64,000 bases of DNA, from assembly GCF_009901585.1 (NCBI RefSeq), contig NZ_WXYO01000010.1, forward strand, positions 1 through 64,000. The letters run 5' to 3'. Under the pieces are notes generated by a model. The model saw only the letters and a list, made by a program, of their open reading frames with translations. It did not search any database and was not told the DNA's origin. A program made the position numbers and the translations under genes. Every line of letters starts with the position of its first letter. Position 1 is the stretch's first letter. Shown piece after piece: positions 1-15,617 of the stretch. Source of the stretch: Poritiphilus flavus (lineage in GTDB: Bacteria > Bacteroidota > Bacteroidia > Flavobacteriales > Flavobacteriaceae).

Positions 1-1
1 G

Positions 2-508
2 TTCTGTATTTTGGAAGCCCCCAGGGTATCCGATCTTTCAGCCACGGGCAATGGCATCGTACGCTGGTACGAGGACGCGGACAGCACAGCGGAACTGGCG
101 AGCGATACCGCTCTGGAAGATGGCACCCAATATTACGGGGTATTGGAAGACGACAACGGCTGTATCTCCGAACGGGTCGAAGTTGTGGTAAGGATCAACA
201 TACAGGGCTGTGAAGACATGCCGGACTTGAACAAACTTGGTTTCTCGCCAAACGGTGACGGGGTCAATGATACTTTTTCGATTTCCTGGCTGAGGAATGA
301 CTACCCTAACTACAGAATGTCTGTCTATGACCGCAATGGTTCCCTGGTGTACGAAGGGAACATCAGCTCACCGGACTGGGATGGCAGCGCGGACCGGGGA
401 ATTATTCTGGGAGACGGTAAACTGCCCAACGGTGTGTACTATTACACCATAGATTTTGGGGATGAAGCAACACCACCGGTCCAGGGGGTTGTCTATCTGA
501 ACCGATAA
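2..508 (+). CDS. 3' end of a giant T9SS-secreted surface protein (partial)
   Basis: The reading frame is already open at base 2, so the gene starts before the window and only its last 168 residues are seen. They hold an Ig-like segment (IRWYED-like motif seen as VRWYEDADST) followed by a gliding-motility C-terminal (CHU_C, T9SS type B) sorting domain recognised by SPNGDGVNDTF and ending in VVYLNR. In this family the C-terminal domain directs export through the type IX secretion system to the cell surface. The residues match the last ~165 residues of the giant protein at 1807-12987 almost throughout, so the two are tandem paralogues. What the rest of this protein looks like cannot be seen here; by analogy it is probably another BspA/HYR repeat protein, which is inference. 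Confidence 0.9.
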   Translation, partial: FCILEAPRVSDLSATGNGIVRWYEDADSTAELASDTALEDGTQYYGVLEDDNGCISERVEVVVRINIQGCEDMPDLNKLGFSPNGDGVNDTFSISWLRNDYPNYRMSVYDRNGSLVYEGNISSPDWDGSADRGIILGDGKLPNGVYYYTIDFGDEATPPVQGVVYLNR

Positions 509-1806
509 GGCGGAAAGATCTGAAACTGTAAAGCTGTGAAGTTGTAAAACTGTAAAATTGCAACTAAGGGTCTAACATTGACAATTCTGTTCGACAGGCC
601 TATAGCAATTACAGGGATTCAATAGTTTAGGGTGCCCTGTGAAAATTGTAGCTTTTCCTACTCAATTATTTGCACAATTCCGGCGGCTTAAATAGAAATA
701 CCCTATTTCATCCGTTCGCTACACTTGTCAGAGTTCCAGCTTGTTGCTTATTAGTGAAAGGATATTGAACTATGGAGGAGGGTGATAGACAACCAATTTG
801 GAGAGAACCTACAAATATTATGATGTAAAAAAACTATTTCCCGCCCAAAATGTTCTTGTAAAGAATCTTTCTATATCAATGTATTCTACACTTATTTTTT
901 CAATAAACCACTTATGCATTCTCCTTTTTTTCCTTTGGTGACTTTCCTTAATTTCGAATTGTTCAGTTTAAAGGGATGCCATATTGCATTTAGCTTTACA
1001 ACTTTTAGTTTCATTTTCATATCGTTCTTCACAAGTTGGTTCTACCAACCTAGATTAAAATCCCATAACTGGACCTATTTAAATGTTTTCTTAGAGGATT
1101 CGTGCACCAATGGTATGACCAACGTGCCGGGTCCTCCTTTTTTGGACTTCGGATCCAAACACTTATTTCAATGGGAACCCGCCTATGCAATGGCTTTGGT
1201 TTATCTAATAAACTCTGTGTAATTTAGTATTTCAGGTTATTGGATTGTCTCCTTGAAAACCGAAAACATAAATTGGGTTGTTATATGTTGTTGATGGTTG
1301 TAAAGAGCTGTCAATTCCCCTACCAGGTACATAAGAATTGTGTAAAACCATTCTTATGCCCACTTATTCGTAAATAGCTACACTTGTTACATCATTGGTG
1401 CGGTTTTGGTTCCAAGGGAGTACTTTTACACCACTGAAAGTTTACATTTAATATTGATTGATGGTGTTAGCAAAGAAAAATTCCCAGGAACTTCCCGCCA
1501 GGCTATCCTTGGAACATTTCCCCTTCTAGTAAAGCTGATCTGGCTGGTTGTATGATTTTGAGAAATGAAGATTAGAATATTAAGAGACGACCTGTCTTTG
1601 GGAAATTAAAGGAAAACAATGTCCAGAATGTTGTCCAGGGTACGATGTTCGGGTTACCCGGAACGCTTTTACTTCTATTTCCGGGATCCGAAACTAAAAC
1701 CAGTTCACTTGACCCTCCAAGCGGGATTTGGGAAATCCCTATCCCATGTCGCGATTCCGCTCGATTTTTTGCAGTCGATTACTTCATTCAAACACCTTGA
1801 TCCATA
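509..1806. other. gene-poor spacer between two giant surface protein genes
   Basis: About 1.3 kb with no gene I can support. The first 60 bases after the upstream stop are a low-complexity run of CTGTAAA/CTGTGAAGTTG-type words, and a similar run follows the downstream giant gene (13005-13050). Two open frames exist (914-1222, 102 codons; 1619-1807, 62 codons) but neither encodes a recognisable or compositionally protein-like product. The second overlaps the giant gene's start by one base (TAATG) and has a purine-rich AAAGGA a few bases before its ATG, so a leader peptide is conceivable but unsupported. The long 5' distance leaves room for regulatory DNA, but I found no clear TTG/TAnnTTTG promoter pair. 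Confidence 0.6.
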
Positions 1807-4800
1807 ATGAGAACAAACTATCAGATGCGCCTGAAGGGACCTATTCTTTCCTGTTTCATCATATTATGGATGACCACAAACCTGTTTGCCCAAGGTGAGT
1901 TTATTACTACCTGGGATACTACCAAACCAGGAACTTCTGATGCAAACTCCATCACCATACCCGCCTTAGGGGCTTTCGATGTGGACCTGGGCGCAGATGG
2001 AACCTATGAACTGTTCGACATGACGGGGACCCAAACCGTCAATGTCACTACCTACGGCTATACCGCCGGGGAGATTAGGGTGGCTCTTCGCAGGGCTACC
2101 GTCGTCCAAGGACTCAGGGCTCTGGACAGGATATATTTCAACAATACCGGCGACAAGGATAAGCTACTCTCCGTAGACCAATGGGGTAGTATTTCATGGA
2201 GCACTATGGAGGGAGCATTTTATGGCTGTAGTAATCTGGATGTTAAGGCTACAGATACTCCCAACCTTAGTAGGGTTACCAATATGAGTGGGATGTTTCA
2301 TGGGGCGGCTAATTTTAACGGGAATATCAGTTCCTGGAATACGGCTAAGGTGAACAGCATGAAATCAATGTTTTCTGGTGCATCTGGTTTCAACCAGGAC
2401 ATTGGTTCCTGGAATACAAGCCAGGTTACCAATATGGAAGGCATGTTTTATCAGGCCACTGCCTTTGATCAGGATCTTGGTACATGGGATTTGGGAAATG
2501 TGACCAATGGTAGCGATATGCTCAACAACAGTGGTCTGTCCGTTGCTAATTGGGATAACACCCTGATCGGCTGGTATAGCCAGAACTTTAGCAACACCCC
2601 CACTATCGGGGCCTCTGGACTAGTCTATTGTAAGGCCGGCACCGAGCGTACCGCCTTGACCTTCAATTTTACCGGTGACATTGCCGAAACGACTAAACCG
2701 ACGGCACAGTGCAAGGCGACAGCACTTATACTGGGCACCGATGGCACAGCCACCCTGACGGCCAATCTTGTAGACAAGGGGTCTTACGATGCTTGCGGGA
2801 ACGTCTCTTTAAGCCTGTCCAACAGCAGCTTTACAACTTCTGATCTGGGTACGAATACAGTGACCCTTACCGCAACTGACCCCAATGGGAACACAAACAG
2901 TTGTACTGCAATGGTCACCGTGGTGGAGCATGCATCAGGGGTATTTATCACCACCTGGGACACCACCACCCAGCATGGCACCTCTAACAGCAATTCTATC
3001 ACTATCCCCGCCACAGGAACTTACGATGTGGACCTGGGCGATGACGGTACCTATGACTTGTTCGACCAGACTGGTACAATTACTATAGACGTTACAGCCT
3101 ATGGCCATACTGCTGGGGAAATAGAAGTAGCCCTTCGAAGTGCTGCTTCCGGTAAGGGGAGTCTGACCCGTATACACTTTAACAATGGTGGTGACAGGCG
3201 AAAATTACTCTCTGTGGACCAATGGGGTAGCGGTATCACTTGGAGTACCATGGAAGATGCATTCCATGGCTGTTTGAATATGGAGGTCAAGGCTACCGAC
3301 GCCCCTAACCTGAGCAGTGTAACCAATATGTCCAGGATGTTTAATAGTTGCTCGTCACTTAAGGGGACTACAGGTCTCTCTGGTTGGAATGTGGCTACTG
3401 TAACTGATATGTCCAGGATGTTCTATCTGGCAAGAACCTTCAATGCGGACATTGGTTCCTGGGATGTGTCCAAGGTGACCGATATGAGTGAGATGTTTAC
3501 CGGTAGTAGTTCTTTCACGGGTACAGCGAGCCTCTCCAATTGGAATGTGTCCAGTGTGACCGATATGAGCTACATGTTTGCCGCTGCAAGTGTCTTTAAT
3601 GCGGATATTGGCTCCTGGGATACCAGCAGTGTGACAGATATGAGCTGGATGTTTCGGTTCGCATCCGCCTTTGACCAGGACCTCAGCACGTGGAATGTAT
3701 CCGGGGTGACCAATATGGTCAATATGTTCCGGGCTATGGACGTCTTTGACCAGGATTTGAGTAGCTGGGACACGGGTAGCGTGACCGATATGTCCGGCAT
3801 GTTTGCCTACACCAAGGCTTTTAACGGGGACATCAGTAGCTGGAACACAAGTGGCGTCAATGATATGAGCGGAATGTTCTTTCAGGCAACCGCTTTTAAC
3901 AGAGACCTCAGTTCCTGGGACACCGGCAATGTGACCAATATGCACTCCATGTTCCGGGACGCAAGCGCCTATGATCATGACCTAGGTGATTGGGATCTGG
4001 GGAAGTTGATCAGTGGCGATTTTATGCTCAATAACAGTGGGCTCTCATCAGGTAAATGGGACGCTACACTGATCGGCTGGCACGCCCAGAACTTTACGAA
4101 TACACCTACTATCGGCGCCTCCGGGCTGGTCTACTGTACAGCCCGCACCCAGCGTGCCGCACTGACTTTAAATATTACTGGGGACAGCGTGGAAACTACC
4201 AAGCCGACGGCCGCCTGCAAGGCAGTAACACTGGAATTGGATAACAACGCCACGGCCACTCTTACGACTGAACTTTTTGACAATGGATCCAATGATAACT
4301 GCGGGAGCGTCTCCCTAAGTTTATCGCAGAGTGAATTCACAACCGCTGATATTGGTTCCAAAACGGTGACCCTAACGGTGAGTGATCCCAATGGGAACAC
4401 GGAGAGTTGCAGCGCAACAGTGACTGTAGTAGGTAATTCTGAGCCCATAGCATCCTGTAAAAACATGACGCTACAGCTAGATGCGACAGGCAGCGGGACG
4501 ATCACAACGGCGGACATCGATAACGGCTCGTCTGACAATAGTGGCACGGTTTCCCTTTCCCTGAGCAAAGCGATTTTTGGATGTTCCGATGTGGGGGACA
4601 ACACAGTAACCCTTACAGTGGCCGACAGTCGCAACAACACAAAAACCTGTAACGCCATTGTAACGGTGGAGGACAAGATCCAGCCGACAGCCAGTTGCAA
4701 AGGTGCCACCGTACGATTGGATTCAGGAGGCAGCGCATCGATTACCGCGTCGGAATTGGACGGTGGTTCCAGCGATGCCTGTGGCGAAGTCTCATTGGGC

Positions 4801-7800
4801 TTGTCCAAGAGCAGCTTTACTACCTCCGACTTAGGCGTGAATATGCTGACCCTTACGGTGACCGATCCCAATGGGAACGCGAACACCTGTCTGGCCGCGG
4901 TGACCGTAGAGGATCCCGAAAACCTGTTTATCACCACATGGAACACGACCAAGTCCGGCACGTCCAACAGCAAATCTATTACCATCCCTGCCACCGGGAC
5001 ATATGATGTGGACCTGGGCAATGACGGAAGCTATGAACTGCTGGACCAGACCGGAACCATCACTGTGGATGTCACTACCTACAGCTATACCTCCGGGGAA
5101 ATACAGCTGGCCCTTCGAAATGCCATATCTGGAAGCGGGACGCTGACCAGGATACATTTCAACAATGGAGGTGACAGACAGAAACTGCTTTCCGTCGACC
5201 AATGGGGCAATAGTATTTCCTGGAGCACCTTGGCGGGCGCATTTTATGGTTGTACCAATTTAGAGGTGAAGGCGACCGACTCTCCGGACCTCGGCAATGT
5301 AACCAATATGGGAAGCGCATTCCGCGCTTGTACCTCACTTACGGGGACGACCAGCTTCTCCAACTGGAACACGGCCAAAGTGACGAATATGAGCAGTATG
5401 TTTGAGGGAGCAAGCGAATTTAATGTGGATATCGGATCTTGGAATACAAGCAAGGTAACCCTTATGAGCTTCATGTTCCAAGACGCAAGTGCCTTTGACC
5501 AGGACATCGGTTCCTGGGATGTGGCCAACGTAACCAATTTGCACAAGATGTTTCGATTTGCCGCGTCCTTTAACCAAGACATCGGTTCCTGGAATACGAG
5601 CATGGTGCAAAACATGGGTGGCATCTTTAGAGGTGCAAGTGCCTTTGACCAGGACATTGGTTCCTGGAACACAAGCGCTGTGATTGATATGGCTCTCATA
5701 TTCGAAGGCGCTACTGTCTTTAATCAGGACATTGGCTCGTGGGATACGAGCAACGTGACCAGTATGTATGCCGTATTCGAGGATGCAAGTGCCTTTGACC
5801 AGGACATCGGCTCCTGGAATATGAGCAAGGTGACGGATATGGACTCGATGTTCATGAACGCCAGTTCCTTTAATCAGGACATAAGCTCATGGAATGTATC
5901 CGGTGTAACCGATATGAGCAAGATGTTTTCTGGAGCAACCGCCTTTGACCAGAACCTGGGGGCCTGGGATTTAGAACAGCTGTCCAAGGGTACGGCAATG
6001 CTCAACAATTGTGGGCTTTCCCTTAGTAACTGGGACAACACGCTTATTGGTTGGTACGGGCAGAGCTTTACCAATACCGTTACAATCGGGGCTTCCGGCC
6101 TGGTCTATTGTACGGCTGCCACCCAGCGTGCCGCGCTTTCCCTAAACATTACTGGTGATAGTGTAGAGGCGAACCCGCCAACGGCCGCATGCAAGGAGGC
6201 GGTAACACTCGAACTTGACGCTAATGGCACTGCCACTCTGACGACCGATCTTGTTGACAATGGTTCCAGCGATGCCTGTGGGAGCGTCTCTCTAGGTTTG
6301 TCGAAGAGTGACTTCTCTACTGCCGAACTTGGTGCAAACACTGTGACCCTGACGGCGACCGACAATAGTAGCAAGACAGACACTTGTGATACTACGGTGA
6401 CTGTGTTAAGCAGATCGGAACCGGTGGCATCCTGTAAGGACATCACGGTACAGCTCGACGCAACGGGTGCTACTGCTATCACTGCTATGGACGTTGACAA
6501 TGGATCTTCAGACAACAGTGGAACAGTGTCACTTCTGATAGATAAAACCGGTTTCGGCTGTTCCAATGTTGGGGCGAACATAGTGACCCTCACCGTGGCT
6601 GACGCTAACAACAACACTAAGACCTGCTCCGCCACGGTAACTGTGGAGGACAAGGTCCAACCGACGGCAATGTGCCGGGCGGTGACACTTCGACTGGATG
6701 CCAACGATACCGCCACCCTGTCCACCACTCTTGTTGACAATGATTCTAGTGATGCCTGCGGGATTGTTTCGCTTGGTCTGTCCCAAAGCAACTTTAGCAC
6801 TGATGACCTTGGTGTGAAAACGGTGACCCTGACGGTAACCGATACCAATGGGAATACAAATAGCTGTAATGCCACAGTGACTGTGGAGGCTTATCCCAGA
6901 ACCACTTTCGTCACAACCTGGGATACGACCAAATCCGGTACTTCGGGGGGGAGCTCAATCTCTATTCCTGCCATGGGGATATATGATGTGGACTTGGGGG
7001 ATGATGGCTCTTATGAACTATTGGAGCAAACCGGGACCACTACCGTAGATGTGACCACATACGGATATAGTTCCGGTATAATAAAAGTGGCCCTTCGAAA
7101 CGCCATCTCCGAGAATGGCTCCCTTTCCAGGATAAATTTCAATAATAGTGGTGATAAGGTCAAAATACTCGCGATAGAACAATGGGGCAGTGCGATATCC
7201 TGGAGCAGCATGCAAAATGCATTTCGCGGCTGTACAAACCTGGACGTTTTGGCGAGCGATACCCCTGATCTGAGCAGTGTGACCACTATGGAGGCCATGT
7301 TCCACAATTGCAGTTCCCTCAAGGGGACCTCTGCAGACAACCTTTCCGGTTGGAACACCGCGAATGTGACGGATATGTGGAGCCTTTTCTATGGGGCAAG
7401 CTCCTTTAACCAGGACATCGGTTCGTGGAACACCAGCAGTGTGACGGATATGCGGTGGATGTTTTACCAGGCGACCTCCTTTAACCAGGATCTTGGAGAC
7501 TGGGACCTGGGAAATTTAACCAGTGGTGCCAATATGCTCAATAACTGTGGGCTTTCCGTCGAAAACTGGGATAAGACACTTATCGGCTGGCATAAACAGG
7601 GATTTACAAACACGCCAACCATAGGGGCCAACGGGCTAATTTACTGTACTGCTGGTACTGAGCGAGACGCTCTTTCCCTTAACGTCAGCGGCGATACGGC
7701 CGAAACTACCAAACCGACCGTTAAGTGCAAGGCAGCTACCCTCCAACTGGGAACGGGTGGCAGTGCCAGCCTGAACGCCTCCCTTGTTGACAATGGTTCG

Positions 7801-10800
7801 AATGATTCCTGCGGGAACGTTAGCTTCAGTTTGTCCCAAAGCAATTTCACAGCCAACCATCTTGGAACAAACACGGTTACGCTTACAGTTACTGACCCTA
7901 ACGGGAACAAGGATAGCTGTACTTCTTCAGTAACCGTTGAAGACAAGATTGCTCCCACCTCCAGTTGCAAGAACATCACCTTACAACTTGATGCAACGGG
8001 CAGCGCGGCCATCACCACCTCGACCATAGACAATGGCTCCTCCGACAACAGTGGTAGTATATCATCGCTTATACTGGACAAGACCAGTTTTAGCTGTTCC
8101 GATATAGGGCAGAACACAGTGACCCTTACGGCGACCGATGGCAGTAGCAACACCAACAGCTGTTCAGCTACGGTGACCGTAGAGGACAATATCAACCCAA
8201 CGGCTGCATGCAAGGCAGCTACCCTCAGAATCGGCACCAATGGAGTACCAGTACTCACAACCGGCCTGGTGGATAACGGATCCGCTGATGCCTGCGGAAG
8301 TGTCTCATTGAATTTGTCTAAGACCAACTTTACGGCCTCCGACCTGGGACCGAACACCGTGACCTTGACTGTTTCCGACCCCAACGGGAACACGAACAGT
8401 TGCCAGACGACGGTGACCGTAGAGGACCCTGCAAGCGTATTTGTTACCACATGGGATACTACCAATTCGGGCATATCCAACGGGAATTCCATCACTATCC
8501 CTGCTACGGGTACCTATGACGTGGATCTGGGCAATGATGGTAGTTACGAATTACTCAACCAGAACGGTACCACCACTATAGATATTACAACTTATGGTCA
8601 CGCTTCCGGAGAGATTCAACTGGCCCTTCGCAATGCCGGATCCGGGACCCTGAGTATAAAATTCAACAATACGGGAGATAAAGCCAAGATACTGTCCGTG
8701 GATCAGTGGGGTAGTGGAATATCATGGGGTTCCATGGGATGGGCATTTTACGGCTGTACCAATCTGGACGTTTTGGCGAGCGACACTCCCGATCTAAGCA
8801 ATGTAACCACTATGGCGGCCATGTTCCACAGTTGCAGTTCCCTCAAGGGGACATCTACGGGCAACTTCTCCAATTGGAATACCGCCAAGGTGACGGACAT
8901 GTGGAGCCTTTTCTATGGGGCAAGCTCCTTTAACCAGGACATTGGTTCGTGGAATACGGCCAGCGTAACAGATATGCGATGGATGTTTTATGAGGCAAGT
9001 GCTTTTGACCAGGACTTAGGGAACTGGGATCTGGGGAAGTTGACTAGTGGGACCAGTATGCTCAACGATAGTGGGCTCTCCGTGAAAAACTGGGACGACA
9101 CGCTAATTGGTTGGTACAACCAGGGATTCACGAACACCCCCACCATTAATGCCTCCGGGCTGGTCTACTGCACAGCCGGCACTGAGCGGGATGCACTTTC
9201 CCTCAACATCATCGGCGATGTTGCAGAAACTATTAAGCCAACGGCACAATGCAAGTCAGTAACGCTCGAACTGGACGCCAATGGAGCAGCTAGCATAACA
9301 GCAGGCCAATTGGATAATGGTTCCAGTGATGCCTGCGGAAGTGTAAGTCTGGGGCTATCCCAGTACAGTTTTACAGCCTCCGACCTGGGGGCGAACCCTG
9401 TGACCCTTACGGTGACCGACCCTAATGGGAATACCAACACTTGTACTTCCACGGTGACCGTGGTGGATGCGACGGCCCCTGTGGCCTCTTGCCAGGATAT
9501 TACTTTAGAATTGGATGCGACGGGCAGCGCGGCCATCACTACCTCGGTTATAGACAATGGCTCCTCCGACAACAGTGGTAGTATATCATCGCTTATACTG
9601 GACAAGACCAGTTTTAGCTGTTCCGATATAGGGCAGAACACAGTGACCCTTACGGCGACCGATGGCAGTAGCAACACCAACAGCTGTTCAGCTACGGTGA
9701 CCGTAGAGGACAATATCAACCCAACGGCTGCATGCAAGGCAGCTACCCTCAGAATCGGCACCAATGGAGTACCAGTACTCACAACCGGCCTGGTGGATAA
9801 CGGATCCGCTGATGCCTGCGGAAGTGTCTCATTGAATTTGTCTAAGACCAACTTTACGGCCTCCGACCTGGGACCGAACACCGTGACCTTGACTGTTTCC
9901 GACCCCAACGGGAACACGAACAGTTGCCAGACGACGGTGACCGTAGAGGACCCTGCAAGCGTATTTGTTACCACATGGGATACTACCAATTCGGGCATAT
10001 CCAACGGGAATTCCATCACTATCCCTGCTACGGGTACCTATGACGTGGATCTGGGCAATGATGGTAGTTACGAATTACTCAACCAGAACGGTACCACCAC
10101 TATAGATATTACAACTTATGGTCACGCTTCCGGAGAGATTCAACTGGCCCTTCGCAATGCCGGATCCGGGACCCTGAGTATAAAATTCAACAATACGGGA
10201 GATAAAGCCAAGATACTGTCCGTGGATCAGTGGGGTAGTGGAATATCATGGGGTTCCATGGGATGGGCATTTTACGGCTGTACCAATCTGGACGTTTTGG
10301 CGAGCGACACTCCCGATCTAAGCAATGTAACCACTATGGCGGCCATGTTCCACAGTTGCAGTTCCCTCAAGGGGACATCTACGGGCAACTTCTCCAATTG
10401 GAATACCGCCAAGGTGACGGACATGTGGAGCCTTTTCTATGGGGCAAGCTCCTTTAACCAGGACATTGGTTCGTGGAATACGGCCAGCGTAACAGATATG
10501 CGATGGATGTTTTATGAGGCAAGTGCTTTTGACCAGGACTTAGGGAACTGGGATCTGGGGAAGTTGACTAGTGGGACCAGTATGCTCAACGATAGTGGGC
10601 TCTCCGTGAAAAACTGGGACGACACGCTAATTGGTTGGTACAACCAGGGATTCACGAACACCCCCACCATTAATGCCTCCGGGCTGGTCTACTGCACAGC
10701 CGGCACTGAGCGGGATGCACTTTCCCTCAACATCATCGGCGATGTTGCAGAAACTATTAAGCCAACGGCACAATGCAAGTCAGTAACGCTCGAACTGGAC

Positions 10801-12987
10801 GCCAATGGAGCAGCTAGCATAACAGCAGGCCAATTGGATAATGGTTCCAGTGATGCCTGCGGAAGTGTAAGTCTGGGGCTATCCCAGTACAGTTTTACAG
10901 CCTCCGACCTGGGGGCGAACCCTGTGACCCTTACGGTGACCGACCCTAATGGGAATACCAACACTTGTACTTCCACGGTGACCGTGGTGGATGCGACGGC
11001 CCCTGTGGCCTCTTGCCAGGATATTACTTTAGAATTGGATGCGACGGGCAGCGCGGCCATCACTACCTCGGTTATAGACAATGGCTCCACCGACAATAGT
11101 GGTAGCATATCATCACTTATACTGGACAAGACCAGTTTTAGTTGTTCCGATATAGGGCAGAACACAGTGACCCTTACGGCGACCGATGGCAGCAACAACG
11201 CGGCTAGCTGCACGGCAACGGTCTTGGTTCGGGACCAGACCCCTCCAATGGCCCAGTGCCATGAAGTAACGCTCGAACTGGACGCCAATGGGGAAGCCAA
11301 TATCCCAGCCGACCTTGTGGACAACGGTTCCAGTGATGCCTGTGGAAGTGTGAGCCTGGAGTTATCCCCAAGTAGTTTTACGATCGATGACCTGGGTGCG
11401 AACACGGTGACCCTAACGGTGACAGACCCCAATGGGAATACGAACTCTTGTACCTCCACAGTGACCGTTGTGGATGCGACAACCCCTACGGCCTCTTGCC
11501 AGGATATTACTGTAGAATTGGATGCAACGGGTAGAGCGACCATCGCGGTAGCCGACGTAAACAACGGTTCTTCCGATAATAGCGGAACCTTATTCCTTTC
11601 GCTGGATAGTGCGGATTTTAGTTGTTCCGATATAGGGCAGAACACAGTGACCTTAACGGCGACTGATGGCAGCAACAACTCGGCTAGCTGCGCGGCTACA
11701 GTCTCGGTTCGGGACCTGACCCCACCAATGGCCCAGTGTCAGGAAGTAGCGCTCGAACTGGACGCCAATGGGAACGCCAACATAACGGCCAATCTTGTGG
11801 ACAATGGTTGCAGTGATACCTGTGGAAGAGTCCGTCTGGAGGTATTCCCAAGTAGTTTTACGATCGATGACCTGGGTGCGAACACAGTGACCCTTACCGT
11901 AACCGACAACAGTGATAATATTGCGACTTGTCAGACCACGGTGACTGTGGTGGACGATACGGCCCCTACGGCCCTTTGTAAGGACATCACTGTGGAGCTA
12001 GACACGAAGGGTAGTGCGACCATCGCGGCAGCGGATATAGACAATGGCTCCTTTGATAGCAATGGTGATACAGTGTCACTTGCTCTGGACAGGACTGATT
12101 TTGGCTGCTCCGATGTTGGAGAGAACACTGTAACCCTGACCGTTACGGACGATGGCGGCAACACAGCCAGCTGTACCGCTACGGTAACGGTTCTGAATTT
12201 AACTGCACCTATGGTCCTTGTTACCAATAGCGGACCGGTCTGTCAGGGATCCGTTTTGCAATTGAACGAGATCAGTGGACTTGGTCTCTCATGGTCCTGG
12301 AGCAGCGATGGAGATGCCGTTTTTAACAACCCTGACATACAAGATCCCGAGGCTACCAATGTCTCGGACGGGGAGGAATTCACGGTTACCGTCACCCTGG
12401 CAAATGGCTGTACCGTAACAGGCACCACCAAGGCCTTTCTTCTGGAAACCCCTGTCCTGAAGACAGTCAGCGAACAGGAATTCTGTATTTTGCAGACCCC
12501 TATTGTATCTGATTTGGCGGCCTCAGGTAATGGCACCATCCGCTGGTATGAGGATGAGAACAGCAGCACGGAATTGGCAAGCGATATTCCACTTGTAGAC
12601 GGCAGCTTGTACTACGGAGCCTTAGAGGATGATAATGGATGTATATCCGAGCGGATTGAAGTCCTAGTAAGGATCACAATGAAAGATTGTGATGAACTAC
12701 CGAAGGCAGATAAACTTGCCTTTTCGCCGAATGGTGATGGGATCCATGATACTTTCTCCATTTCCTGGTTACGGAATGATTACCCTAACTACAGCATGTC
12801 GGTTTACGATCGAAATGGCACCCTGGTATATCAAGGGAACATCGGTATGGCTGACTGGGACGGTAACGCGGACCGTGGACTTATCCTGGCAGATGGCAAA
12901 TTACCCAACGGGGTATACTACTACACCATAGATTTCGGAGATGGGACAACGCCATCAGTCCAGGGGGTAGTCTATCTGAACCGATAA
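1807..12987 (+). CDS. giant BspA-like / HYR-repeat T9SS surface protein (3,726 aa)
   Basis: Likely cell-surface adhesin or surface-layer component. Residues 1-29 are a signal peptide (hydrophobic run ending NLFAQ). Six BspA-type blocks (DUF285-like) begin near residues 30, 378, 1039, 1699, 2210 and 2718; each starts with an ITTWDTT motif and carries about 22-residue repeats of the form [23 protein letters not shown] (about 3, 9, 9, 3, 3 and 3 copies). Between and after them lie about 19 HYR/Ig-like domains of ~80 residues (PTAxCK...DNGSSDACG...NTVTLTVTD). The end holds an Ig-like segment (from ~3468) and a CHU_C type B sorting domain ([11 protein letters not shown], ~3637-3726). Blocks 5 and 6 with their HYR triplets are a duplicated 508-residue unit. 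The partial upstream gene shares the same ending. DUF285 repeats are known from Mycoplasma and Bacteroidota surface proteins; ligand unknown. Confidence 0.95.
8026..11088 (+). repeat. tandem duplication, 1,524-bp period, no mismatch seen
   Basis: The bases at 8026-9549 recur at 9550-11073, in frame (1,524 bp = 508 codons). The shifted self-match continues 15 bases into a third, diverged copy, where ATAGACAATGGCTCC is followed by A instead of T. I compared many segments and all translated residues and saw no difference between the two copies, including silent positions. Each unit holds one BspA block with its flanking HYR domains. Other units in the same gene are clearly diverged, so this copy is recent or maintained by gene conversion. 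A long-repeat assembly artefact is the main alternative. Confidence 0.93.
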
Positions 12988-13696
12988 GCAGGAGGAATTT
13001 GAATAGTTGATTTCTGAAGTAGTAAAACTGTGAAGTCGTTAATTGGATCTTATCCAATTAAAACTTTTTTAAGCATTAGTTAGCAAGAAGGTTCTGTAGC
13101 TTAAATGGAACTGTATTGTCTGCCAGTTTTGTCTTATCAATCCTTTGTTTCCTTAATAAACTTCGTGCCAGTCACATGCCTTTGCATTATTTATGGCGTC
13201 TACGGCTACCAACCTGTACTTATTAAAATACCACAATGAAAATTTTTTTCCCAACGCTCCCGCCAGTTTTCAACTGGTGGGCGATTTTATCTTTATAAGT
13301 TTATTAAGCGAACCACGAGATGCAATCTCGCGGTAGCGAGGGGCAAGAAGATTCTGTGGTTTAATTGTAGGTATAAGTTTAAAAGTTTTGAGTGCTGAGC
13401 AAGGAAAACTGTTCACTGTTTACCGTTCACTGATTACTGTTCACTGCAAACTGATTACTGCCCACTGCCAAATGTTCACCGGGGTTCTAAACCCCTCCCC
13501 AAATTCAAGTTAATTCCTGGGACTGAAATTTAAGAGCAGAAAGGATTAAGATCAAGTATAAGCTCAAGTGTAAGTATAAGTTTAAACGTTTTGAGTGTTG
13601 AGTAAGGAAAACCGTTTACTGTTCACTGATTACTGTTTACTGATTACTGTTCACTGCAAACTGATTACTGCCCACTGCCAACTGAACACATTATTC
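12988..13696. other. non-coding spacer with hairpins and repeats
   Basis: No gene is supported here. Just after the giant gene there is a CTGAAGTAGTAAAACTGTGAAG run like that at 520-560. A hairpin with arms CCCGCCAGTT / AACTGGTGGG lies near 13259-13281 and is followed by a T-rich stretch, so it may terminate transcription. A second hairpin, CGAGAT-GCA-ATCTCG, lies near 13316-13330. The phrase GCAAGAAGRTTCTGTRGYTTAA occurs twice, near 13083 and 13342. The remainder is the low-complexity repeat described separately. Confidence 0.6.
13371..13684. repeat. paired low-complexity block (GTTCACTG/GATTACTG words)
   Basis: Two related ~105-bp blocks, 13371-13475 and 13574-13684, each begin GTATAAGTTTAAA and GTTTTGAGTG and end with many variants of the 7-8-base words TTCACTG, TTTACTG and GATTACTG, closing with CCCACTGCCAA. 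Between them is a GGGGTTCTAAACCCC palindrome (13481-13495) and an AAGTATAAGCTCAAGTGTAAG-type run. The same set of elements in the same order relative to the palindrome occurs near 21930-22090. No reading frame or RNA gene explains it. Confidence 0.8.
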
Positions 13697-13782
13697 CTCC
13701 ACAGCACAAGCAGGCTTGGCTGTTACGAAATAAAAAAGCCACCAACTTTCGTTGATGGCTTCTCTTAGTAGCGGGGACTGGA
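13697..13782 (-). repeat. partial copy of tRNA-fMet 3' end with its terminator
   Basis: Bases 13697-13782 repeat 13873-13958 (offset 176) with one or two differences. The copied part holds the last dozen or so bases of the tRNA acceptor and T arm, the 3' trailer and the terminator hairpin; after GGGGACTGGA the two diverge. It is a tRNA remnant and not a functional gene. Such 3'-end copies can arise by tandem tRNA gene loss or by integration at the tRNA 3' end, but no integrase lies nearby and the DNA between copies is only ~90 bp. Confidence 0.85.
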
Positions 13783-13904
13783 TTCTTTCCTCGCATTGCT
13801 CGGAAAGGGCCTTTGGGGTGGCTTTACCAAGAAAAGCCATCTATTTGCTGGCGCAAATAGGTCTTTTTATTGCTCCACAGCACAAGCAAGCTTGGCTGTT
13901 ACGA

Positions 13905-13937
13905 AATAAAAAAGCCACCAACTTTCGTTGATGGCTT
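13905..13937 (-). terminator. rho-independent terminator of tRNA-fMet
   Basis: Read on the minus strand just after the tRNA: AAGCCATCAACGAAAGTTGGTGGCTTTTTTA. Arms AGCCATCAAC and GTTGGTGGCT pair around GAAA, followed by a run of T. A second copy, with the tRNA remnant, lies at about 13729-13761. Confidence 0.85.
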
Positions 13938-13944
13938 CTCTTAG

Positions 13945-14017
<73 letters not shown>

Positions 14018-14103
14018 ATGTATGTTTTTCAGTCTATTACGACCGTGTTTTTTGTTTCTTTTCTCAGGATGAGTAGGTACCCTGTCCTGAGCCTGCCGCA
14101 GGA

Positions 14104-14124
14104 TACTGCTCTACCCCGCGATGT
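14104..14124 (-). repeat. 21-bp copy of the tRNA-fMet 5' end
   Basis: Bases 14104-14124 are identical to 14001-14021, which covers the first 17 bases of the tRNA and four bases upstream. The copy lies 103 bp before the tRNA's own 5' end and breaks off after AGCAGTA. The break abuts a palindrome-rich stretch: arms CTCAGGA/TCCTGAG at 14063-14069 and 14085-14091, and CCTGCCGCAGG at 14092-14102. This looks like a second tRNA gene interrupted by a small palindromic element or a deletion. Confidence 0.85.
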
Positions 14125-14231
14125 GGACGGCAAATATACAACGGTTTTCTTCACCAATCCAAACTATACCCATAATAATTTAAGCTGGCCGAACTACCCA
14201 AACCTTAAATTGCATAACTTCGGGCTTTGAT

Positions 14232-15617
14232 ATGGACGTTATTAATGATTTTCTCTCTGCCCTGATTCCTTATGCGGAATGGGTAATGCTCTTTTTAGTG
14301 ATCGGTGGTGGATTATACCTGGTTTTCTATTCCAGGGGTATTCCCTATCGCTATTTCCGACATGCCATCGGTATTACCGCTGGGAAACACGACAACCCGG
14401 ACGATCCCGGGGAAGTAAGTCACCTTCAGGCCTTATCTGCCGCGGTTGCCGCAACGGTAGGACTCGGAAATATCTCCGGCGTAGCCATAGCAATTTATCG
14501 GGGTGGGCCCGGCGTAATCTTCTGGATCTGGCTTACTGCCATTATAGGGATGTGCATAAAATTCTACTCCTGTAGCCTTGCCATCATCTACAGGGATCAG
14601 AACGCCCACGGAGAATTACAGGGTGGCCCCATGTACTACATCACCAAAGGAATAGGGCAAAAAGCCAGACCTCTGGCCTCTTTTTTCTGTGTTGCCGGGC
14701 TTGTGGGATTCCTCGGGGTGTTTACCGTAAACCAGTTTACCCAAACCTTTATGGAAGTGGTATCCCCGGATAATAGCATTGTCCATCTCGGAGGTACTTC
14801 CGCGAATCCTCAATTGTATTGGAAACTTATCATAGGGATAACGCTTTCCATTATCACCTCCTTTGTGATCTTTGGAGGCTTGCAAAAGATTGCCAGGGTG
14901 GCAACCGCCATCGTTCCCTTTATGGTAGTACTGTATTTTCTGGCAGTATTGGTAGTTATGGTCATGAATTCAGGTGAAATACTGCCCAGCCTTAAACTGA
15001 TCGTCACTGAGGCATTTAATTTCAATACAGCCATAGAAGGCGGCTTCTGGGGAATTATAATACTTGGGGTTAGGCGTGCGGTCTTTTCCAACGAATCCGG
15101 GCTGGGAAGTGCGCCGATGTATCACGGACAATCCAAAACCAAAGAACCTGTCCAGGAAGGGCTGGTGGCCATGCTGGGGCCTTTCATTGATACCATCATA
15201 GTGTGTACCCTGACAGCTGTGGTTATTATCCTAAGCGGGGCCTACCTGGAGGCGGAAAGCGACGGCATATTGATGACGCTTATAGCCTTCAAAAAATCAC
15301 TCTTCGGCTTTGGCGACGTACTCCTGATGCTGATCGTTTCAGCATTTGCGCTCTCCACGCTTTTTACTTATTCTTATTACGGTGTTAAATGCTTGTCTTT
15401 CCTCACCAACCCTAAGATTGGTAAGTATTTTAATTTCTACTATGTGGCTACTATTACATTTGCCGCGGTGGCTTCTGTAGGGCTAGTTATTAATCTTATT
15501 GACCTGGCTTATGCGTTAATGGTTATTCCAAATATGCTGGCCGTGCTGTATTTGGCACCCAAAGTAAATGCCGAGATGAAACTGTATTTCAAAAAACTGA
15601 AAAATGAGCGCTCATAA
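14232..15617 (+). CDS. alanine/glycine:cation symporter (AGCS family)
   Basis: Inner-membrane sodium- or proton-coupled uptake of small neutral amino acids such as alanine or glycine. The 461 residues form about ten hydrophobic segments. AGCS family motifs are visible: the N-terminal ALSAAVAATVGLGNISGVA glycine-rich stretch (~77-95), GGPMYYI (~136-142), and the conserved RRAVFSNESGLGSAP segment (~287-301). Length is normal for the family. Its 3' end overlaps the start of era by 14 bases, so the two are probably cotranscribed. Substrate choice between alanine, glycine or another amino acid cannot be read from the sequence. Confidence 0.93.
   Translation: MDVINDFLSALIPYAEWVMLFLVIGGGLYLVFYSRGIPYRYFRHAIGITAGKHDNPDDPGEVSHLQALSAAVAATVGLGNISGVAIAIYRGGPGVIFWIWLTAIIGMCIKFYSCSLAIIYRDQNAHGELQGGPMYYITKGIGQKARPLASFFCVAGLVGFLGVFTVNQFTQTFMEVVSPDNSIVHLGGTSANPQLYWKLIIGITLSIITSFVIFGGLQKIARVATAIVPFMVVLYFLAVLVVMVMNSGEILPSLKLIVTEAFNFNTAIEGGFWGIIILGVRRAVFSNESGLGSAPMYHGQSKTKEPVQEGLVAMLGPFIDTIIVCTLTAVVIILSGAYLEAESDGILMTLIAFKKSLFGFGDVLLMLIVSAFALSTLFTYSYYGVKCLSFLTNPKIGKYFNFYYVATITFAAVASVGLVINLIDLAYALMVIPNMLAVLYLAPKVNAEMKLYFKKLKNERS

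Follow-up and report, generated by a model that had tools for sequence, protein, structure and literature searches.

In the stretch of Poritiphilus flavus DNA analyzed here (the window, 64,000 nt, the first 64 kb of contig NZ_WXYO01000010.1, hereafter C19), the gene for a giant, putatively type IX-secreted surface protein has likely grown by recently duplicating a composite block in tandem and in frame. At an offset of 1,524 nt, positions 8026-9564 and 9550-11088 form one unbroken identical run of 1,539 nt with 0 mismatches, equal to two 1,524-bp (508-codon) copies plus a 15-bp overlap, an identity far beyond chance. The second-longest exact repeat among 14 sequences of the same genome (13 gene-family stretches plus the window, ~261 kb) measures 254 nt. 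An original prediction for this DNA had placed the event at 8026-11088 and described two in-frame copies of 508 codons; the coordinates are exact, the offset is divisible by 3, and the tract begins on a codon boundary. The features that carry the comparison, with module names explained below, are as follows.

1807-12987, plus strand: gene for the giant surface protein, 3,726 codons (open reading frame [ORF] list; Pfam DUF285, HYR, and CHU_C; NCBIfam TIGR02167 and TIGR04131; module map by pattern and eye)
8026-9549, plus strand: copy 1 of the unit, 1,524 bp, residues 2074-2581
9550-11073, plus strand: copy 2 of the unit, residues 2582-3089, identical to copy 1
6907-7713, plus strand: FxTTW and PARCEL core of supermodule SM4, the nearest diverged neighbor, with 74.8% nucleotide identity and a silent-site difference (pS) of 0.64 to SM5
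8440-9237, plus strand: FxTTW and PARCEL core of SM5, within copy 1 (module map)
9964-10761, plus strand: FxTTW and PARCEL core of SM6, within copy 2, equal to SM5 (module map, silent-site comparison)

A base-by-base alignment of the copies, which the original prediction had proposed as a check, left no differences at any of ~366 synonymous sites across the 513 codons of the tract, a result obtained from what looks like a short-read assembly. Taken at face value, that assembly bounds pS to ~0.8% (95%). Outside the tract, identity at the same offset drops to 56 to 87% per 100 nt on the left (7100-7999), and on the right it is 96% and then 52 to 86% (9500-9999), with 18 to 31% after position 10000. 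The other comparisons of module cores among SM1 to SM6 (n = 14, of which 10 are distinct, SM5 being equal to SM6) gave saturated pS values of 0.64 to 0.79 and nonsynonymous values (pN) of 0.14 to 0.25. The earlier description of neighboring units as clearly diverged thus holds for the module cores and less well for the HYR-B domains, where pS is 0.38 between B4 and B6 and 0.34 between B6 and B7.

The 3,726-residue product agrees with the predicted giant surface-type protein, having HYR Ig-like domains (PF02494) and a signal of type B cargo of the type IX secretion system (T9SS; TIGR04131, 43.9 bits against a cutoff of 35; PF13585 CHU_C, 67.1 bits against a cutoff of 27). Its modules had been labeled BspA/HYR, and the second half of that label stands. 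The leucine-rich-type part instead matches DUF285 (PF03382, 934.6 bits against a cutoff of 25, in 10 stretches) and the 25-residue PARCEL repeats (TIGR02167, 319.8 bits against a cutoff of 30, in 12 stretches; NF045896, 613.6 bits against a cutoff of 500), and the Pfam and NCBIfam scans reported no BspA-named or LRR_5 model at an E value of ≤0.001. Lesser matches were DUF6941 and PKD_4 (Pfam) and LapB_rpt_80 (NCBIfam). By pattern and eye, the protein divides into six supermodules, SM1 to SM6, whose F-[IV]-T-T-W starts lie at nt 1900, 2944, 4927, 6907, 8440, and 9964; each consists of a PARCEL ladder followed by HYR domains in alternating A-B-A order, with one HYR domain after SM1, three after each of SM2 to SM5, and six after SM6. 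The name FxTTW and the HYR A and B labels were coined in this analysis. Two further features complete the map.

12718-12978, plus strand: CHU_C / T9SS type B sorting domain, residues 3638-3724 (Pfam, NCBIfam)
10782-11894, plus strand: an older, diverged tandem repeat of a HYR A+B pair, 480-bp period, 2.3 copies, 82% matches

Judging from the CHU_C / T9SS type B signal, the protein would be located at the cell surface, where it may act in adhesion. An AlphaFold2 model of the unit at 8440-9963, built from an alignment of six rows from the window, had a mean pLDDT of 76.6 and a pTM of 0.52, with the three HYR domains mostly at 83 to 95 per ten residues and the first 82 residues mostly below 55. 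The best 50 Foldseek matches in the PDB were mostly tandem cadherins and also included titin Ig domains, the RTX adhesin 6xi1, internalin K (4l3a, with poor superposition), and a Periscope Protein structure of tandem Rib domains (6s5y, with TMt reaching 0.58); TMq was 0.15 to 0.26 throughout these 50. A sequence search of the PDB returned no matches at an E value of ≤0.01. The model and its matches lend general support to a predicted rod of Ig-like domains and carry no information about a ligand.

The junction and a proposed origin

A three-way comparison locates the ends of the duplicated block within two homologous domains. The new junction (~9550) matches the right parental site (~11074) leftward and the left parental site (~8026) rightward, with 15 bp common to all three. 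The two parental sites occupy equivalent places in a pair of HYR-B domains (starts at 7954 and 11002), and a sharp-edged patch of 169 nt with 91% identity joins them.

9550-9564, plus strand: 15-bp crossover interval at the new junction, equal to 8026-8040 and 11074-11088 (three-way comparison)
11074-11088, plus strand: third (partial) copy of the 15-bp interval, at the right parental breakpoint
7985-8153, plus strand: left homology patch (HYR-B domain B4); identity to 11033-11201 is 91%, with flanks at 62 to 63%
11033-11201, plus strand: right homology patch, in HYR-B domain B6

These positions suggest how the gene could have grown. The parent gene would have held two HYR-B domains 1,524 bp apart that had in common the 169-bp patch of 91% identity. 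A misaligned exchange inside the 15-bp identical interval, either unequal sister exchange or replication slippage, would have created a hybrid HYR-B domain, its left side taken from the downstream domain and its right side from the upstream one. The block duplicated in this way would run from the end of one HYR-B domain through a HYR-A domain, an FxTTW domain with its PARCEL leucine-rich-type ladder, and a second HYR-A domain to the start of the next HYR-B domain, for a gain of 508 residues, equivalent in length to three HYR domains plus a further leucine-rich-type module. Because such an exchange paired matching positions of homologous domains, the reading frame was kept, and presumably so was the fold at the junction. 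The agent could have been RecA or slippage, which would leave an identical mark at the junction.

All 111 127-mers and all five 21-mers that cross the junction are unique within the window, and the sole spanning 17-mer is not. The junction between the copies should be real, since a k-mer assembler could presumably have taken unique spanning k-mers only from the reads.

The homology patch itself, an island of similarity between less similar flanks, suggests an earlier exchange. A paralogue in the same genome has a larger island: within an ORF of at least 8,470 codons on contig C14, 751 nt are 95% identical between C14:605713-606463 and C14:614164-614914 (offset 8,451), with 34 to 61% identity per 100 nt just outside. 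This island is probably the product of conversion or dispersed duplication.

The gene family in this genome and in relatives

The giant gene belongs to a large family. Scoring 150 of 580 candidates gave at least 150 PARCEL matches at an E value of ≤0.001 in the P. flavus genome; almost all of them lie in long ORFs, and the longest family ORF found, with 8,470 codons, is cut by a contig end. Contig ends were surveyed over 30 ends of 15 contigs, leaving out C6 to C9, which read as N. Twelve of these 30 lie in ORFs of the PARCEL/HYR family as assigned by motif counts, ORF ends, and eye: both ends of C2, C3, C4, C10, and C14 (C3 by HYR-like sequence only) and the ends of C15 and C16. Two more, the starts of C17 and C19 (window position 1), lie in ORFs that end in a type B sorting domain (TIGR04131 for C19). 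When family loci were compared with themselves, 26 of 27 near-identical stretches had offsets divisible by 3, an outcome that comparing homologous modules in a single frame would produce anyway; the odd one out was a 103-bp period at C14:574302-574536, overlapping a tRNA gene.

The surroundings of the giant gene carry repeats as well. Upstream, window positions 1-508 hold another ORF that ends like a T9SS type B cargo and is cut by the start of C19, and its first 127 bp equal the start of C17 (L144); this neighbor is probably a paralogue, with an ambiguous continuation. Downstream lie two arrays of 7- to 21-bp periods (13406-13685 and 13714-13958) and a 69-bp exact repeat (at 13714 and 13890) beside a tRNA-Met gene (13944-14017, minus strand), a remnant of whose end recurs by eye at ~14105-14125. 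At the gathering threshold, Rfam reported only a tRNA over the window. A 96-bp exact match that includes the tRNA-Met gene links window positions 13944-14039 to L122:14253-14348, on C14 near a HYR-type ORF with a type B-like end, and the two neighborhoods may be of common origin.

The next gene downstream, for a symporter (14232-15617), offered an anchor for synteny. Its best named relatives, at 82% protein identity, were in Zeaxanthinibacter sp. PT1 and Flavobacteriaceae bacterium CP2B. We searched 109 relative loci around it (in one collection, 80 of 168 kept), of which 57 spanned at least 21.3 kb and the others were cut by contig ends. None of the 109 had a homologue of the giant protein near the symporter at an E value of ≤1e-10, and at an E value of ≤10 only two matches appeared, with E values of 0.18 and 0.19, both in a single locus (L093). 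Across whole genomes, a DNA search of 199 genomes of the family Flavobacteriaceae found matches at an E value of ≤0.001 in at least 29, P. flavus included (2 candidates scored per genome), and the best match outside P. flavus among the candidates scored was 132 nt at 73%. A profile search of 299 genomes found matches at the same threshold in at least 229, again including P. flavus (at most 4 candidates scored per genome).

Exact repeats of at least 150 nt at offsets of 60 to 8,000 were then surveyed in 17 loci of 15 single-contig genomes among the matches listed; multi-contig genomes were left out, not every listed place of the 15 was taken, and a single contig was assumed to mean a long-read assembly. 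Three of the 15 genomes (G063, G094, and G177) have an exact in-frame run at least as long as its offset, each in an ORF with HYR-type matches, which are strong in G063 and G094 and weak in G177. G063 (L177:10642-14720) contains a 4,079-nt stretch with a period of 240, or ~17 identical HYR units, in an ORF of 3,919 codons whose type A sorting domain falls below the cutoff (21.5 against 23 bits). The same ORF also has a Laminin_G_3 domain. At the G094 locus (L175:522-9176), two long HYR-type ORFs stand in the same frame, one stop apart. The downstream one holds a 951-bp tandem pair with an 18-bp overlap (period plus 18 bp) together with a 237-bp one, both in frame, and this G094 ORF has HYR_4C domains and a type B sorting domain above the cutoff. 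In the third, G177, a 270-bp array lies in an ORF that runs off the edge of the stretch and has a weak HYR_4C match (39.4 bits, no stretch passing alone). Runs shorter than their offset were seen in G191 (473 nt, offset 474) and G263 (176 nt, offset 1,680), both in frame, and in G270 (246 nt, offset 2,962), out of frame, and the remaining nine genomes had no exact repeats of at least 150 nt in the loci taken. HYR-type blocks have thus been duplicated exactly and in frame more than once within the family, although most of the loci sampled show no such event. Finding the same type of event in 3 of 15 genomes whose assembly is less doubtful supports reading the repeat in P. flavus as a duplication.

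Assembly and competing explanations

The sequence of P. flavus (4.99 Mb in 19 contigs) looks like a short-read de Bruijn assembly with k = 127. Eleven pairs of contig ends share at least 20 nt (seven with the same start, four overlapping), and the shared length is exactly 127 bp in six of them and 118, 119, 119, 123, and 137 bp in the others; these 127-bp ends suggest a SPAdes-like assembler. A single 5.6-kb contig, C5, holds the collapsed rRNA operon (16S, 23S, 5S, and two tRNAs), and both C11 and C19 run onto the start of C5.

Several points weigh against a simple two-copy duplication. Short reads do not span a 1,524-bp repeat, so the copy number and the perfect identity rest partly on the assembler; the real array may exceed two copies or be mixed in number, and single differences may have been smoothed away. 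The evidence for duplication in P. flavus comes from one assembly of one strain. Homology length alone did not pick the crossover site, because a longer exact stretch common to both parental sites, 50 bp at 8095-8144, went unused in favor of the 15-bp interval. Among the single-contig relatives, no exact run reaches the length of its period at the loci taken from 12 of the 15, and the G094 example sits in a frame broken by an in-frame stop just upstream, so that gene may be broken.

Short-read assemblers can merge isolated differences between repeat copies. In 265 kb of P. flavus sequence, neighboring exact runs of at least 100 bp occurred only at the C2 and C4 ends (119, 142, 108, and 251 nt), and no neighboring pair had both runs at 127 nt or more, so this assembly gives no example of an isolated difference retained.

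One alternative accepts the array as real but holds that it has three or more copies, or mixed copy numbers, the assembler having walked the repeat loop once and written two. The 127-bp sharing of contig ends and the collapsed rRNA operon, marks of short-read de Bruijn assembly, fit this explanation, as does a simulation whose Table 5, by our count, has SPAdes scaffolds writing 2 copies in 39 of 45 settings with a true number of 3, 4, or 5 (PMC6052550). However, the other six settings (400- and 500-bp motifs, 250-bp insert), where the motif was well above the insert, gave 0 for a true number of 3 to 5, while a true 2 gave 2, and a 1,524-bp motif would behave similarly if the library had short inserts. 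On real data from the same benchmark, some two-copy repeats with a 612-bp motif were likewise missed by SPAdes (PMC6052550). The benchmark therefore does not fix the copy number here. We regard a higher or mixed number as unlikely. The contig ends that fall in the PARCEL/HYR family warn against trusting the lengths of these proteins as written in short-read assemblies of such bacteria.

The original prediction had left a choice between duplication and active gene conversion. Conversion that evened out two older adjacent units, with no new duplication, could draw on the patchy high identity between distant modules in the giant gene and in its paralogue (the 751-nt island). Yet the ends of such a tract would have had to fall exactly one period plus 15 bp apart, a spacing that a duplication gives automatically. 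Because the identical tract has exactly that length, duplication is favored, and we rejected a conversion-only history as very improbable. It is harder still to credit an artefact in which a second copy was invented from a single genomic one: short reads cannot span the repeat and contig ends of this genome concentrate in the PARCEL/HYR family, but the joined sites share only 15 bp of identity at the junction, and the reads would need to contain the unique 127-mers and 21-mers that cross it.

A recent duplication is the explanation we carry forward, and the unit may be gained and lost between strains. A bolder extension, which we offer tentatively and consider doubtful, would make the recombining unit a complete "reach plus grip" cassette, with three HYR spacers and one leucine-rich-type module. 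Across this genome, the giant PARCEL/HYR genes would then recombine as one shared system, with short-read assembly concealing their exact arrays, and changes in cassette number within cultures would tune adhesin length and valency.

Comparison with known systems

In the titles and abstract openings of the literature searched, we found no description of the giant protein or of its duplication. One closely related group is the PARCEL proteins (TIGR02167), whose family the 25-residue repeats match in 12 stretches. As described, PARCEL proteins contain infrequent blocks of identical or near-identical repeats, most likely from recent duplication, and dyad symmetry (palindromic coding sequence) is a named feature of their repeat DNA (PMC2996958). 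Unlike in those blocks, the unit here is ~20 times one PARCEL repeat and ends in HYR domains rather than PARCELs. The HYR-type ORFs of G063 and G094 resemble the giant gene in having exact in-frame tandem repeats (~17 × 240 bp and 2 × 951 bp) and HYR or HYR_4C domains; they differ from it in unit length, and no DUF285 match was reported in them.

Periscope Proteins, such as SasG, Rib, Sgo_0707, and CdrA, provide a parallel in behavior, and recent length change of this kind is known from bacterial adhesins. Periscope Proteins sit at the cell surface and carry tandem domains of very high identity, down to nearly identical coding DNA; many have Ig-like stalk domains, and repeat gain and loss by intragenic recombination has been proposed for them (PMC8201768, PMC9704523). 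One criterion for that group, repeats in tandem that exceed 50 residues and are highly identical in DNA, applies here to two 508-residue units that are identical in the assembly. The group is further characterized by repeat numbers that differ between strains or cells, as seen with long reads, by globular repeat domains stacked into a rod-like stalk, and by attachment to the cell surface. The Rib structure 6s5y is among the Foldseek matches of the unit in the giant protein. In contrast to Periscope Proteins, that unit is a 508-residue composite of a leucine-rich-type module and HYR domains, the identical pair stands alone amid strongly diverged cores, and the protein bears a type IX secretion signal. 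By analogy, it may work like a Periscope Protein, as a candidate for membership in the group.

The locus would offer a clean example of how a giant type IX-secreted protein can grow, through one exchange at matching positions of homologous domains that adds 508 residues and leaves the frame intact. If copy number varies in culture, it would also become a PCR-readable model of how a Gram-negative bacterium that uses type IX secretion can vary protein length in the Periscope manner.

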